Shown here: positions 20,863-51,423 of the stretch, one piece after another
Layout: every line of letters begins with the position of its first letter
Position numbering within the stretch: position 1 is the first letter of the stretch
From: a virus
IMG/VR virus record: IMGVR_UViG_3300050015_000111
Location: 1-52,811 of that record
DNA length: 52,811 nucleotides
Reading direction: 5' to 3' (one strand)
The notes under the pieces: model-generated
What the model was told of the DNA's origin: nothing
The model's database searches: none
Seen by the model: only the letters and a program-made list of their open reading frames with translations
Program-made: the position numbers and the translations under genes

Positions 20863-22743
20863 CTACTTGAACTCGAAGATCAGCATGCCGCCCGGGGAGC
20901 CGTTGGTGCCGTTGGCGCCGCCGGCGCCGTAGCCACCCCAACCCATGCCGGCCCCGGTTATGCCGGGCTGCCCGTTGCTGCCGTTCCCTGACTGGCCCTG
21001 GACGAGCGCCTGCCCGACGCCGCCTGCGCCGCCACCGCCGCCAGGGCCGCTGTCGTCGTCGGGGGCCGGCCCGGCCGACCCGCCACCGCCGCCGGAGACG
21101 GAGGCGAGCGAACCCAACGACGTGCCGCCGCCGGGGCCACCGGCGACGGGGTTGCTATTGGTCCCGCCCGTTCCCCCGGCGCCGATCGTGACGGCCTGGC
21201 CGCTTCCGATCTGCGCCGCGGTCAGGGTGGTGATGCCATACTCACCGCCGCCGCCGGGGGCACCAGGACCGAAGCTGCTGCCGTTGGCCGTCCCGCCACC
21301 ACCGCCCGCGCCACCCCAGAAGTAGACGATGGCGTACTTCAGGCCGCTCATCGGTGTGTACGTGAAGCTGCCGACGGTCCGGAACGCCTGGAGATTCAGC
21401 CCGTTGATGCCGCCCGCGGCGGCGAGGGCCGCCATCGTGGCGACGGTGGCGTTGTTGGTCCCCGGCGCCTGCGTCGTGGCGGTCGTGCCGCTCGGCAGCA
21501 CCAGCGTCCCGGTGGCCGCTTGCGCGCCTCCGGCGGCTCCCGTCCCGGTCAACGGTGCCGTCGTCGCGACGCTCGGCAGGGCGGTGTTGATGTTGGCCGT
21601 GGTCGCGAGCGTGCCGCCGCCGGTTGGCGCCAGCAGCGTGCCGCTGATGGCGCCCGTCACGGGCTGGACCGTCAGCGTGCCGCTTGTCGCGTTGCCGAGC
21701 GTGACGCTGCCCAGCGTGCCGCTTGCGCCGAGCGTCAACGCGCCGAGGTTGACCGACGCGTTGGCCGCGGTGCCGCAGCCCCCGGCGCCGTTGTTGTAGA
21801 GCAGGAGGCCGCTCGTGGCGCCCACCACTGTGCAGCCTCCGCCGCCCCCGCCGCCAAGCGCGTTCGCGACGAAGGCCGTGGAGGCGATCGACCCGTTGTT
21901 GGTCCCCGGCGCCTGTGTCGTAGCGGCGGTGCCGTTTGGAAGCGTGACCGCGCCCGCCAGATTGGTCGCCGTCGTGGCGTTGCCTGAAAGCGAGCCGACC
22001 AAGGCACTCCCGAACGTCGTCGTTCCCGTCACGCTGAGCGTGCCACCGATGGTGGCGTTGCCGGTGACACCCACGTTGCTCAAGGTGGTGTTGCCGGTGA
22101 CACCCAGGCCGTTGGCGATGGTCGCGCCGCCACTCAGGGTGGTCGCTCCGGTGACACCCAGCGTGCCGCCGACCGTGGCGTTGTTGGTGGTAGTGCTGGT
22201 GCCGGCGGTGAGCGTATCGGTGGTCGTGCCGCCGGTGACTGCCGCGCCGCCGTTCAGGCGGCTCAGGCCGGTGACACCCAGCGTGCCGCCGACCGTGGCG
22301 TTGCTCAAGGTGGTGTTGCCGGTGACACCCAGGCCGTTGGCGATGGTCGCGCCGCCACTCAGGGTGGTCGCCCCCGTCACCCCGAGCGTGCCGCCGATGG
22401 TGGCGTTGCCGCTCGTTCCAAGGGACGAAAGCGACGTTGCCCCAGTCGCCGCGAGTGTTCCCCCCACCGTGGCGTTACCCGTCACCCCGAGCGCGCCGCC
22501 GATGGTGGCGTTGCCCGTAACAGTTGCAGACCCAAATGTAGGATTGGCAAACACCGTCGAAAGCGGCGTAATCCCTACCGAGTTAGGGAACAGCGAGGGT
22601 CGCCATGTCAACACATAGTCACTCGGTTGCGAAGACGACATCAAAGGTAGGCACCCAACCGAACCGGCGGGAGATTGCGCCGGGTCACATGCCCAAACGG
22701 ATGCGGGGAACGCCAATGCCGCGAGAATGACAAGGATTTTCAT
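20863..22743 (-). CDS. Fibre protein with repeat shaft and glycine-rich tip (626 aa)
   Basis: Starts with a Sec signal peptide (MKILVILAALAFPASVWA-C; a Cys follows the cleavage site). Residues about 70-270 are repeats of the type GNATIGGTLGVTGATTLSGG, expected to form a beta-structured trimeric shaft. Two TTQAPGTNN modules follow, as in many phage fibres. The last 150 residues are polyglycine-rich (WGGAGGGGG, GPGGGGGAGG), like phage adhesin tips that fold as glycine sandwiches. Likely receptor-binding fibre. The start overlaps the previous stop by ATGA. Confidence 0.8.
   Translation of the reverse strand: MKILVILAALAFPASVWACDPAQSPAGSVGCLPLMSSSQPSDYVLTWRPSLFPNSVGITPLSTVFANPTFGSATVTGNATIGGALGVTGNATVGGTLAATGATSLSSLGTSGNATIGGTLGVTGATTLSGGATIANGLGVTGNTTLSNATVGGTLGVTGLSRLNGGAAVTGGTTTDTLTAGTSTTTNNATVGGTLGVTGATTLSGGATIANGLGVTGNTTLSNVGVTGNATIGGTLSVTGTTTFGSALVGSLSGNATTATNLAGAVTLPNGTAATTQAPGTNNGSIASTAFVANALGGGGGGGCTVVGATSGLLLYNNGAGGCGTAANASVNLGALTLGASGTLGSVTLGNATSGTLTVQPVTGAISGTLLAPTGGGTLATTANINTALPSVATTAPLTGTGAAGGAQAATGTLVLPSGTTATTQAPGTNNATVATMAALAAAGGINGLNLQAFRTVGSFTYTPMSGLKYAIVYFWGGAGGGGGTANGSSFGPGAPGGGGEYGITTLTAAQIGSGQAVTIGAGGTGGTNSNPVAGGPGGGTSLGSLASVSGGGGGSAGPAPDDDSGPGGGGGAGGVGQALVQGQSGNGSNGQPGITGAGMGWGGYGAGGANGTNGSPGGMLIFEFK
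22075..22371 (-). repeat. Internal direct repeats in the fibre shaft gene
   Basis: A perfect 72-bp direct repeat occupies 22075-22146 and 22300-22371 (offset 225 bp, 75 codons). A 33-bp repeat occupies 22151-22183 and 22271-22303 (offset 120 bp, 40 codons). All offsets are multiples of three, so unequal recombination would lengthen or shorten the shaft without breaking the frame. Confidence 0.85.
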
Positions 22744-38737: not shown

Positions 38738-38766
38738 ATCCTATACGTGACAACCACCGTTGTCAG
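38738..38766 (-). promoter_or_regulatory. Leaderless promoter with perfect operator palindrome for the recombinase
   Basis: CTGACA (38766-38761), a 17-base spacer and TAGGAT (38743-38738) form a sigma70-like promoter whose -10 ends 6 bases before the ATG. A perfect palindrome TGACAAC-CACC-GTTGTCA (38748-38765) fills the spacer. Its left half with flank (38746-38758) recurs with one change at 39214-39226 in the GTGAC array, suggesting a shared regulator. Confidence 0.5.
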
Positions 38767-39212: not shown

Positions 39213-39366
39213 GCGTGACAACTACCATAGTGTGACGTTAGACCGGGGCGTCACCAGGCGTGACAAAAGCCCTTCTAAAGAAGGGGCTTTTTTGTCACGG
39301 CCATCCTGTCACGCCTGAACGTGACAAAGCGTGACGTTAAATTAGTGTCACGCATTAGTGTCACGC
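39213..39366. repeat. Array of GTGAC/GTCAC sites, likely iterons or operators
   Basis: Ten copies of the core GTGAC or its complement occur in 154 bases, at about 39215, 39232, 39250, 39260, 39294, 39308, 39321, 39331, 39347 and 39360. Most fit GCGTGACA/TGTCACGC. The last two lie in a perfect tandem 13-bp repeat ATTAGTGTCACGC (39341-39353, 39354-39366). Four more cores follow inside the replication gene (39652, 39671, 39686, 39701). Location next to the replication gene suggests an origin. Confidence 0.7.
39265..39293. terminator. Bidirectional intrinsic terminator
   Basis: AAAAGCCCTTC-TAAA-GAAGGGGCTTTTTT forms an 11-bp stem with one bulged G and a T-run on both strands. On the minus strand it would end transcription of the primase/helicase gene 80 bases past its stop, insulating the small FlbD-like gene. 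Confidence 0.75.
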
Positions 39367-39372
39367 TTGGGA

Positions 39373-41325
39373 TTATGGCCTTGCCAGCCAGATATAGGGG
39401 CCTCTCGCGACGGCGATTTCGCGGTCTGTGAGGGATTTTTTGGCCCGGAAGAAGGCTTGACGCTTCGCGGCCGGGGTTTCGCCGTCCATCTCGGCATAAA
39501 ACTCTTCGCGGAAGCGGTCGGTAGCGCAGGCGGATGTATTCTCGGGGTAATCTGGGCCTGGTGGCAGCATGGCGCCGTGCTTGGCGAGGGCATTGACGAG
39601 AAGCTGGCGGGCATGGACGACGCTATCGGCCATACTCCGGCGACTGGGGGCGTGACGGAGCGCGGCGTCTGTCACGCTTAGGGGCGTGACAGTGCAGCTT
39701 GTCACGGCTTCGCCGTGTCTATTACGGCCAATTTCAACGACTTGTAGGCTGAACGTGAACACGGAGCCTTTGCTAAGATCGCGCTGCTTGACCACGGTGG
39801 CGGACTTTTTATCGCCTTCTGGATCGGCTACAACCTCAATCTCGGTGTCGATCGCAGCGCGCAAGAGGGAGTGGCCGCGCGCGCCCTTGGCTGCATCCTT
39901 GCCGCTGTGATGGATGAACATGACCATGGCGCCAGTTTCTGCCCTGATCCTGTCCATATTGACGACTAGGGCGCCCATATCCTCGGGGCTATTTTCATCG
40001 CCCCCCGCCATGGCGCGAGACAAGGTATCGACCACGATCAATTTTACGGGCATTTCAAGTCGTTTAGCGGCGAAGTTGACCGATGATATGAGCTTCGGTG
40101 TGTCGGCGTCGGGATGTAGTAGGTTGATGGATGAGGGGATGGAGGCGAAGGGAATTGTCTTATCATCTAAGCCATGGTTCAGTTTCCAGGCATAGACGCG
40201 GTTGCGGAAGCCGATGCCGCCTTCGAGGGCGCAGTAGACGACGGCGCCTTGTTCAACCCTGCGCTCATTCCACGGAAATCCGGCGGCGACGTGTAACGCC
40301 ATATCTGTGGCAAAGAAAGTTTTTCCGGCGTTGCTCTCGCCGTAAACGACAGCGGCGGTCTGTTCGAGCAGGACACCTTGGATGAAGTCTCGAACATCTG
40401 TGACTGGTTGGATATCCTCGAACCACAGGAGGGGAAGGGAAGGTTCGACGGGGTTTATATCTGGCTCGGCGACGGGCTCCGAGCCTTCATGTTCGGATGT
40501 TGGCGGCGGCGGTTCCTCTGGCGCGTGCCCGTTTAGTCGGGGTCTGTCCGGTAGGTCTAGTGGGTTCTGCATCCCCATCTCGACGCCCCACTCGGCCGTC
40601 TTCTCGGCCCCCTTGCGGTCCAGCGCCGTCGCCGGCAGGGCATCCATGAGCCGGCGGACCAGATCGGGTTTGGATAGCGGGCCGAGGTGGGCGACGCCGC
40701 CGAGGATCATGGCCTGATTGCGGAGGATGAAATGCTTCTGACCTTCCGGGGCGGAACTGACCCGGCTCAGGACGGCGCGGACGAAGCCTTCGAGGCGAGC
40801 GGACGGGATCGGATCGTAGGAACTCGGCGCTGGTTTCGGGTCTGCGGCGCGCGTCTTCGGTAGGATTTCCGCCAGCAGCCAGTCCGGCCAATGGGCGATC
40901 TCGGCATCGCTGACGACAGAATAGGATGGGGATGGGGGGACGACGACATATCCCCCGCTGCCCCTCACATCAATTCCGGGCGCAATAGCCGAAGCTGAAT
41001 TGTGAACGCCCTCGACGTGGCGGAAGAGCCAGTGCCGGCCGCCGCCCATCGTTTGGTGGATGCGAGTTTCCGGCAGGCGGTGTTGATTGGCCTTCTCCCA
41101 CTCGTCGCCGCCGTGGCGGGGGTCCACGTCCAGCACGTCGAAACCGGACGCCTCGCCGGTCGGGACGCCGATCAGGGCGCCGGAGCCGTTGAATAGCCGG
41201 CGGATTTCGCTGGGATCGGATGTGGCCGCCTTGAATCCAAGTGGGCACGCTGGCGCCTTTGAAGCCTTACATGGAAAGACGGGGAACGTGGAGGAAAGCC
41301 GAATGGCCTCATCAACGATGGTCAT
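39373..41325 (-). CDS. Primase-polymerase / AAA helicase fusion (650 aa)
   Basis: Replication protein. Residues 12-135 form a bifunctional primase-polymerase (AEP) domain: PVFPC at the start, LIGVPTG, the metal-binding FDVLDVD (D66, D68), GGGRHWLF with H98 and GIDVRGSGGYVVVPPS. After a linker, residues 315-520 are a RepA/DnaB-like ATPase: Walker A GESNAGKT (329-336), CALEGG, Walker B LIVVDT (429-434) and MFIHHSGKD. The C-terminus is HTH-like. GGAGGA lies 9 bases upstream. The gene lies next to the GTGAC array. Confidence 0.85.
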   Translation of the reverse strand: MTIVDEAIRLSSTFPVFPCKASKAPACPLGFKAATSDPSEIRRLFNGSGALIGVPTGEASGFDVLDVDPRHGGDEWEKANQHRLPETRIHQTMGGGRHWLFRHVEGVHNSASAIAPGIDVRGSGGYVVVPPSPSYSVVSDAEIAHWPDWLLAEILPKTRAADPKPAPSSYDPIPSARLEGFVRAVLSRVSSAPEGQKHFILRNQAMILGGVAHLGPLSKPDLVRRLMDALPATALDRKGAEKTAEWGVEMGMQNPLDLPDRPRLNGHAPEEPPPPTSEHEGSEPVAEPDINPVEPSLPLLWFEDIQPVTDVRDFIQGVLLEQTAAVVYGESNAGKTFFATDMALHVAAGFPWNERRVEQGAVVYCALEGGIGFRNRVYAWKLNHGLDDKTIPFASIPSSINLLHPDADTPKLISSVNFAAKRLEMPVKLIVVDTLSRAMAGGDENSPEDMGALVVNMDRIRAETGAMVMFIHHSGKDAAKGARGHSLLRAAIDTEIEVVADPEGDKKSATVVKQRDLSKGSVFTFSLQVVEIGRNRHGEAVTSCTVTPLSVTDAALRHAPSRRSMADSVVHARQLLVNALAKHGAMLPPGPDYPENTSACATDRFREEFYAEMDGETPAAKRQAFFRAKKSLTDREIAVARGPYIWLARP

Positions 41326-41340: not shown

Positions 41341-41556
41341 CTACAGCGGCGCGACGATGACCGTCTCTAAATTCTCGCGGACTCGGCTGGTGCCCACCAG
41401 CAAGCCGGCCTTATTGGCCTCGTGCATGACCATCAGCGCCCCAAGGGCCTGCCGGATTAGCGTCGTCCGCGCGACATTCCGCTCTTTAGACAGCCGAATC
41501 AGGGCATCGGCGGCATCGGCTGGCAGGTCAAGATTAACGCGGACGTAACCATTCAT
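41341..41556 (-). CDS. Ribbon-helix-helix regulator (71 aa)
   Basis: Begins MNGYVRVNLDLPADAADALI with a beta ribbon (VRVNLDLP) followed by helices around RLSKERNVARTTLIRQALG, the classic CopG/Arc layout. It lies 15 bases before the primase/helicase and behind the strong promoter at 41576-41604, so it may repress the replication unit. AGAGGTG precedes the ATG. Confidence 0.75.
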   Translation of the reverse strand: MNGYVRVNLDLPADAADALIRLSKERNVARTTLIRQALGALMVMHEANKAGLLVGTSRVRENLETVIVAPL

Positions 41557-51348: not shown

Positions 51349-51423
51349 TGGAAGACAGGGCGGGACTCGAACCCGCAACCTCAAGAGTCAAAGTCTCGTG
51401 CTCTACCATTGAGCTACCTGCCC
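51349..51423 (-). tRNA. tRNA-Gln (anticodon UUG)
   Basis: A complete cloverleaf on the minus strand: acceptor GGGCAGG/CCTGTCT with two G-U pairs; D arm GCTC-AATGGTA-GAGC; anticodon arm CGAGA-CTTTGAC-TCTTG with anticodon TTG; 5-base variable region; T arm GCGGG-TTCGAGT-CCCGC; discriminator T and encoded CCA. It reads CAA (and possibly CAG) glutamine codons. The 5' GGGCAGG and T discriminator differ from the usual bacterial tRNA-Gln. The first position G1-U72 is a wobble pair. Confidence 0.85.

Follow-up and report, generated by a model that had tools for sequence, protein, structure and literature searches.

A linear IMG/VR virus contig of 52,811 bp, analysed over its whole length and called the window here, carries a dense array of short repeats beside a primase-helicase gene, which raises the question of whether the array is a replication origin and which protein binds it. 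We consider it very probable that the array is the replication origin of this phage and that its GCGTGACA iterons are bound by the C-terminal winged helix of the neighbouring primase-helicase. This analysis established that the array exists where stated, that a winged helix is predicted beside it, and that recognition helix and repeat covary in a way that allows successful prediction.

The repeat array and its surroundings

The main iteron array (39213-39366) is intergenic and lies directly 3' of the minus-strand gene at 39373-41325. Ten GTGAC/GTCAC cores were counted within 150 bp (39215-39364), in both orientations, at positions 39215, 39232, 39250, 39260, 39294, 39308, 39321, 39331, 39347 and 39360. 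The pentamer occurs 111 times in the whole window, giving an expectation of 0.32 per 154 bp. Four further cores (39652, 39671, 39686 and 39701) form a second cluster at 39652-39705, in the 3' part of the helicase gene. The original prediction of ten cores in 154 bases, where chance would give well under one, and of four more in the end of the replication gene was therefore accurate, as was its perfect 13-bp tandem repeat (ATTAGTGTCACGC, twice, 39341-39366). The array is also the window maximum for the density of these cores (10 per 154 bp and 14 per 500 bp), and the next 500-bp peak, near 22.0 kb, has nine. This second-densest cluster lies in an unusually GC-rich stretch (21001-22500, with 74% GC at 21-22 kb).

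The enrichment proposed for the 8-mer GCGTGACA was borne out by the count. All seven copies in the 52,811-bp record fall within 39213-39691, five of them in the main array and two in the second cluster, and no other comparable cluster of GCGTGACA was detected in the window. Several copies of a short repeat are thus confined to one region beside a putative initiator gene, as is expected of an iteron origin. A bidirectional terminator-like hairpin (39259-39299, core stem 39270-39285) is nested in the array and closed by a convergent repeat pair, with a folding z of about -5.5 on either strand. No promoter-like match was found inside the array of the window. GC skew changed from -0.13 at 38-39 kb to +0.08 and +0.11 at 39-41 kb, without a genome-wide V shape or a clear origin signal. 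Across 72 comparison loci the first 250 bp past the stop codon were slightly richer in AT (45% compared with 40%, and higher in 58 of the 72); no distinct AT-rich unwinding element was shown in the window.

An isolated repeat-like site, CGTGACAACCACC (38746-38758, plus strand), is located just upstream of a recombinase gene. It had been described as a recombinase operator sharing a half-site with 39214-39226, and it is indeed identical at 12 of 13 positions to CGTGACAACTACC at those coordinates and forms part of the inverted repeat TGACAAC-CACC-GTTGTCA. However, CGTGACA occurs five times in the window outside the array, so this single site does not exceed chance and its membership in the array is uncertain. 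A gene for a 71-aa RHH protein (41341-41556, minus strand; PF01402 below cut-off) precedes the helicase gene. The FlbD-like label given to a small downstream ORF was not confirmed. A tRNA-Gln (TTG) gene is located at 51349-51423 on the minus strand.

The primase-helicase and arrays at other helicase genes

The gene adjoining the array (39373-41325, minus strand) encodes the proposed initiator, a primase-helicase of 650 aa. Its N-terminal Prim-Pol domain (aa 13-149, 40879-41289; PF09250, E 4e-26) and its RecA-fold helicase/ATPase domain AAA_25 (aa 303-478, 39892-40419; PF13481, E 3e-40) scored 92.7 and 138.5 bits, both above the respective Pfam cut-offs of 22.8 and 27. The C-terminal part of about 90 residues was modelled by AlphaFold2 as a winged helix with a mean pLDDT of 88.5 (80-93 in the full-length model). 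This proposed origin-binding domain (aa 566-650, 39376-39630) contains the recognition helix AAKRQAFFRAKKSLTDR (aa 618-634, 39424-39474) as its third helix, with the core KRQAFFR at aa 621-627 and Q623 and R627 as specificity positions. The nearest solved folds were CRP/FNR-type DNA-binding domains, and the match was weak (best E 0.056, probability 0.98). As a lead only, the spacing of R622, Q623 and R627 matches that of what we take to be the DNA-contacting residues R180, E181 and R185 of Escherichia coli CRP. In Pfam and NCBIfam, any one family was reached by at most two of 57 C-terminal domain sequences, all with E above 0.004, and a profile search of PDB sequences with this domain returned one weak, unrelated chain. 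The SaPI-type helicase family was absent from the domain matches of the window helicase.

Related arrays were collected by scanning IMG/VR DNA for three closely spaced GCGTGACA copies, which gave at least 120 loci. Clustering of the neighbouring proteins placed a DnaB/RecA-type helicase or a relative beside the array in 38 of 121 loci (the scan matches listed, with the window included), and 13 aligned AAA_25-type helicases of this repeat-selected sample had the C-terminal motif KRQAFxR or a variant in common. Since these loci had been chosen by their repeat, an unbiased sample was needed, and loci were collected by the helicase ATPase domain alone; removal of near-identical C-termini (85%) left 169 non-redundant loci. 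An array was measured as at least six copies of the most frequent 7-mer, with no prior sequence, between 300 bp before and 600 bp after the stop codon. By this measure 103 of the 169 loci have an array at the helicase gene's 3' end, compared with 45 of 1993 equal-sized control stretches from the same loci, and about 40% of this ATPase-selected sample had no strong array by the 7-mer measure. In a second set, drawn from a different part of the helicase tree, the counts were 43 of 67 loci and 2 of 699 control stretches.

A core could be aligned in 72 loci. There it reaches 12.1 copies per kb over the 600 bp that follow the stop codon, compared with 4.6 per kb over the 300 bp preceding it and 0.18 per kb in the remaining sequence. 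At least three copies lay strictly past the stop codon in 63 of the 72, and the association of array and gene is therefore not a coding artefact. In four loci (L366, L395, L408 and L455) the helicase reading frame continues through the array and the repeats encode the tail of the protein.

Covariation of recognition helix and repeat

The sequence of the repeat varies between phages, tracking the recognition helix and not the ATPase domain. Helices of the form KRQAFxR or KRQRFxR are accompanied by GCGTGACA, [KR][KR][KR]AFxR mostly by CGGGACA, KQKAFxR by CCGGACA, xRTAF[ML]R by CGTCACA, KRTAFHK by CGTTCCC, KRKAFF[TA]VK by CGTTACC and NKRQA[WY]xR by CGTACCA. Mutual information peaked between helix position 2 (Q623 in the window) and core bases 3 and 4 (z 14.1 and 10.7) and between helix position 6 (R627) and core base 7 (z 18.7). 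K or R at position 2 occurred with GG in 29 of 35 cases against 0 of 37 (p 1.4e-14), Q with TG in 4 of 8 against 1 of 64 (p 3e-4), and T or S with TC or TT (p 9e-7), while R at position 6 occurred with a final A in 49 of 50 against 6 of 22 (p 3e-10). Over these 72 related loci, with tree-free permutations, the partial Mantel correlation of repeat similarity with the helix given ATPase identity was 0.51 (0 of 2000 permutations), and that with the ATPase domain given the helix was -0.04. When ATPase identity was below 35%, an identical core was found in 78% of pairs with at least 80% helix identity and in 5% of those with less than 34%. The loci L121 and L318, in which ERKQWER accompanies CGTGACA, are a genuine exception to the rule.

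The relationship was also predictive. For loci of the second set the repeat was predicted out of sample from the nearest helix of the first set and ranked among 19 repeats, and among the 17 loci whose helix has R at position 6, the predicted repeat came first in 15. Eleven of the 15 successes had less than 45% identity to any training domain, although among these 11 one (L411) is the same as L102, already in the repeat-selected sample, and two (L469 and L480) have only three copies. A single precedent sufficed to predict CGGCACA correctly for V at position 2. The two misses were L479, which has no array, and L428, which was mis-assigned through an exceptional neighbour and fits a simple K-to-GG rule. 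In the reverse direction, from DNA to protein, 9 of the 10 distinct helices reached from GCGTGACA arrays have Q at position 2, and all 20 reached from CGGGACA arrays have K or R there (p 7e-7). The scan with CGTTACC gave one helicase-adjacent locus, and none of the loci fetched had a type-A domain, a result without bearing on that branch of the code.

The reversed pattern ACAGTGCG served as a control and gave 46 loci compared with at least 120 for GCGTGACA. The control was not clean because it matched arrays of another helicase type: in nine of its loci the array adjoins a different AAA helicase that has its own C-terminus, and eight of these nine come from near-identical phages. Among the matches listed, a helicase near the array was found by strict criteria in 21 of 120 GCGTGACA loci against 1 of 46 for the reversed pattern, and by loose criteria in 20 of 120 against 9 of 46. 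A type-A winged helix lay near the array in 12 of the GCGTGACA matches listed and in none with the reversed pattern. As the reversed pattern also matched helicase arrays, a helicase near the array is not discriminating by itself, while the type-A winged helix is.

Other combinations of initiator and repeat were encountered. GCGTGACA arrays of a second class are located within the genes for replication-initiation or primosomal phage proteins of about 260-340 aa (O-like, DUF1376), such as L013:9125-10057 and those in L021, L026, L031, L042, L048, L051, L061, L064, L074, L078, L095-L097, L116 and L123. The GCGTGACA repeats of these genes coincide with the coding sequence of linker peptides (VTRD and CHAxVTPxSR, for example), in a lambda-O-like layout; the same 8-mer is thus used by a different, O-like initiator family, which also speaks for an origin. 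In several reversed-pattern loci (L132, L133, L143, L146, L157, L163, L169 and L170) the array follows another AAA helicase with the C-terminal helix GDGKSAAARAKVLLKEW, apparently a further type of initiator and repeat. Helicases ending in helices with RRFKE or NNRFWE (L430, L439-L441, L443-L449, L452, L456, L459, L463, L465, L472, L475 and L483) have dense arrays of 10-18 copies of GTACCGA, GCACCGA or CATCCGA at the gene end and would be a further branch of the helix-repeat code. A second C-terminal type (APQSK..GRYAPR..) was accompanied by GCGGAAGT- or GGCGAAGGT-like repeats, some of them weak (L345, L344, L002, L189, L346, L347 and L350).

Function of the array and comparison with known systems

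Arrays of the repeat were also sought in related phages, with a divided outcome. In the Rhizobium phages 16-3 and RHph_X2_25, which were identified through their protein, the helix is KRQRFNR and the gene is immediately followed by 13-14 GCGTGACA copies, in a hairpin and repeat layout similar to that of the window, while the nearest relatives of the window carry another repeat. Roseobacter phage CRP-811 has a different helix and ACTACAAA repeats. The contigs L001-L004 are 96.5% identical to the window in nucleotide sequence over 40504-41226, the Prim-Pol half, and keep a homologous RHH gene; their helicase domain and C-terminus differ from those of the window, and their gene is followed by GGCGAAGGT repeats, with six exact copies in 338 bp and no GTGAC. 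In this natural swap the helicase end and the array have therefore been exchanged together.

Several known systems resemble this arrangement. In lambda O-type initiators, iterons are likewise tied to the initiator gene and next to the helicase. The iterons of lambda O lie inside the initiator gene, whereas those of the window lie mainly after the helicase gene; the O-like GCGTGACA proteins match the lambda layout. The P4 repeat is GGTGAACA, compared with GCGTGACA in the window, and RepA of RSF1010 is a RecA-fold helicase. The alpha protein of P4 unites a primase and a helicase with a winged helix at its C-terminus, which binds the repeats of the origin (PMC4234260). The window protein has the same three parts, with repeat binding predicted, but its N-terminus is a Prim-Pol domain (PF09250) and not a Toprim-type primase. 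ORF904 of the crenarchaeal plasmid pRN1 also combines Prim-Pol, helicase and C-terminal winged helix, and an essential origin region lies downstream of its gene, next to a terminator; however, the pRN1 helicase belongs to SF3 and its origin is a stem-loop that lacks iterons, in contrast to the AAA_25 helicase and iteron array of the window (PMC4234260). In RSF1010 the helicase RepA, the dedicated primase RepB' and the iteron binder RepC act on an iteron origin (PMC4234260), but as three separate proteins, whereas these functions would be fused in one polypeptide in the window.

A similar layout is that of SaPI Rep/ori and SCCmec Cch2, where the C-terminal domain of the initiator helicase recognises iterons directly downstream of its gene (PMC7581432, citing Ubeda et al. 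2007). The window would share this C-terminal recognition domain, as judged from covariation, and the downstream iterons. It differs in its RecA-fold AAA_25 helicase, which is not of the SaPI Rep/Cch type, in the Prim-Pol domain fused in the same protein, in the sequence of the DNA-binding domain and in the repeats. By analogy, the window system would work like SaPI Rep/ori, P4 alpha and pRN1 ORF904 without belonging to those families, because it combines a RecA/AAA_25 helicase with a winged helix that has no curated family in the libraries searched. Our literature search, of incomplete coverage, found nothing on GCGTGACA as an iteron, on the origin of phage 16-3 or on the origins of this family, and earlier descriptions may exist.

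The helicase C-terminal domain could also bind the array mainly for copy control, autoregulation or termination, with replication starting elsewhere. Plasmid iterons also act in copy control, and the terminator nested in the array and the second repeat cluster inside the gene would suit such a role. We nevertheless regard it as unlikely, since no other cluster of GCGTGACA comparable to the array was detected in the window and the analogues use a downstream array or region for replication: SaPI Rep has its origin there (PMC7581432), and in pRN1 the sequence 3' of the replication gene is required (PMC4234260). About equally improbable is the other branch of the original prediction, in which the repeats serve as operators for a shared repressor. 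Such a repressor, either the RHH protein or a recombinase regulator, would control both gene blocks. The repeat-like site upstream of the recombinase gene and the RHH gene directly upstream of the helicase agree with it, but the array lies 3' of the gene around a terminator and lacks a promoter-like match, and the repeat covaries with the helicase terminus. Moreover, an RHH homologue (E 2e-21) persists in L001 and L002, where the array was replaced by GGCGAAGGT, and the other 19 GCGTGACA loci examined showed no RHH homologue, which argues against the RHH protein as the array binder. A chance or compositional origin of the repeats can practically be dismissed: GTGAC is a common pentamer, but random placement of all seven 8-mers in those 505 bp has p of about 7e-15, and more than 100 loci have arrays of other repeat sequences in the same place.

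The identification of the iteron-like cluster beside the primase-helicase as a candidate origin is thus supported by several independent comparative tests, and the binder that we propose is the C-terminal winged helix of the primase-helicase itself. We infer physical binding, DNA melting, priming and initiation as follows. Copies of the primase-helicase would bind the GCGTGACA repeats through the winged helix and its recognition helix, gathering RecA-fold helicase rings on the DNA just past their own gene. The duplex would be opened at the array, beside the helicase gene, and the N-terminal Prim-Pol domain would then lay primers. The helicase end and the array may form one self-recognising cassette that moves between phages as a block, and a change of the recognition helix would be followed by a change of the repeat.

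More broadly, there is probably a large family of RecA-fold initiator helicases in phages and prophages that use an undescribed C-terminal winged helix to read an array of short repeats immediately after their own gene, by a largely readable code (at position 2, Q for TG, K or R for GG, T for TC or TT and V for GC; at position 6, R for a final A). Only a minority of environmental phages have a known replication origin; should this reading hold, the end of the helicase gene would mark the origin in many others, and the repeat could be predicted from the recognition helix, making origins and initiator compatibility predictable from sequence alone. It would also provide dozens of natural protein-DNA pairs for studying the coevolution of initiator and origin, a possible basis of replication incompatibility between phages, and a route by which phages exchange replication cassettes.
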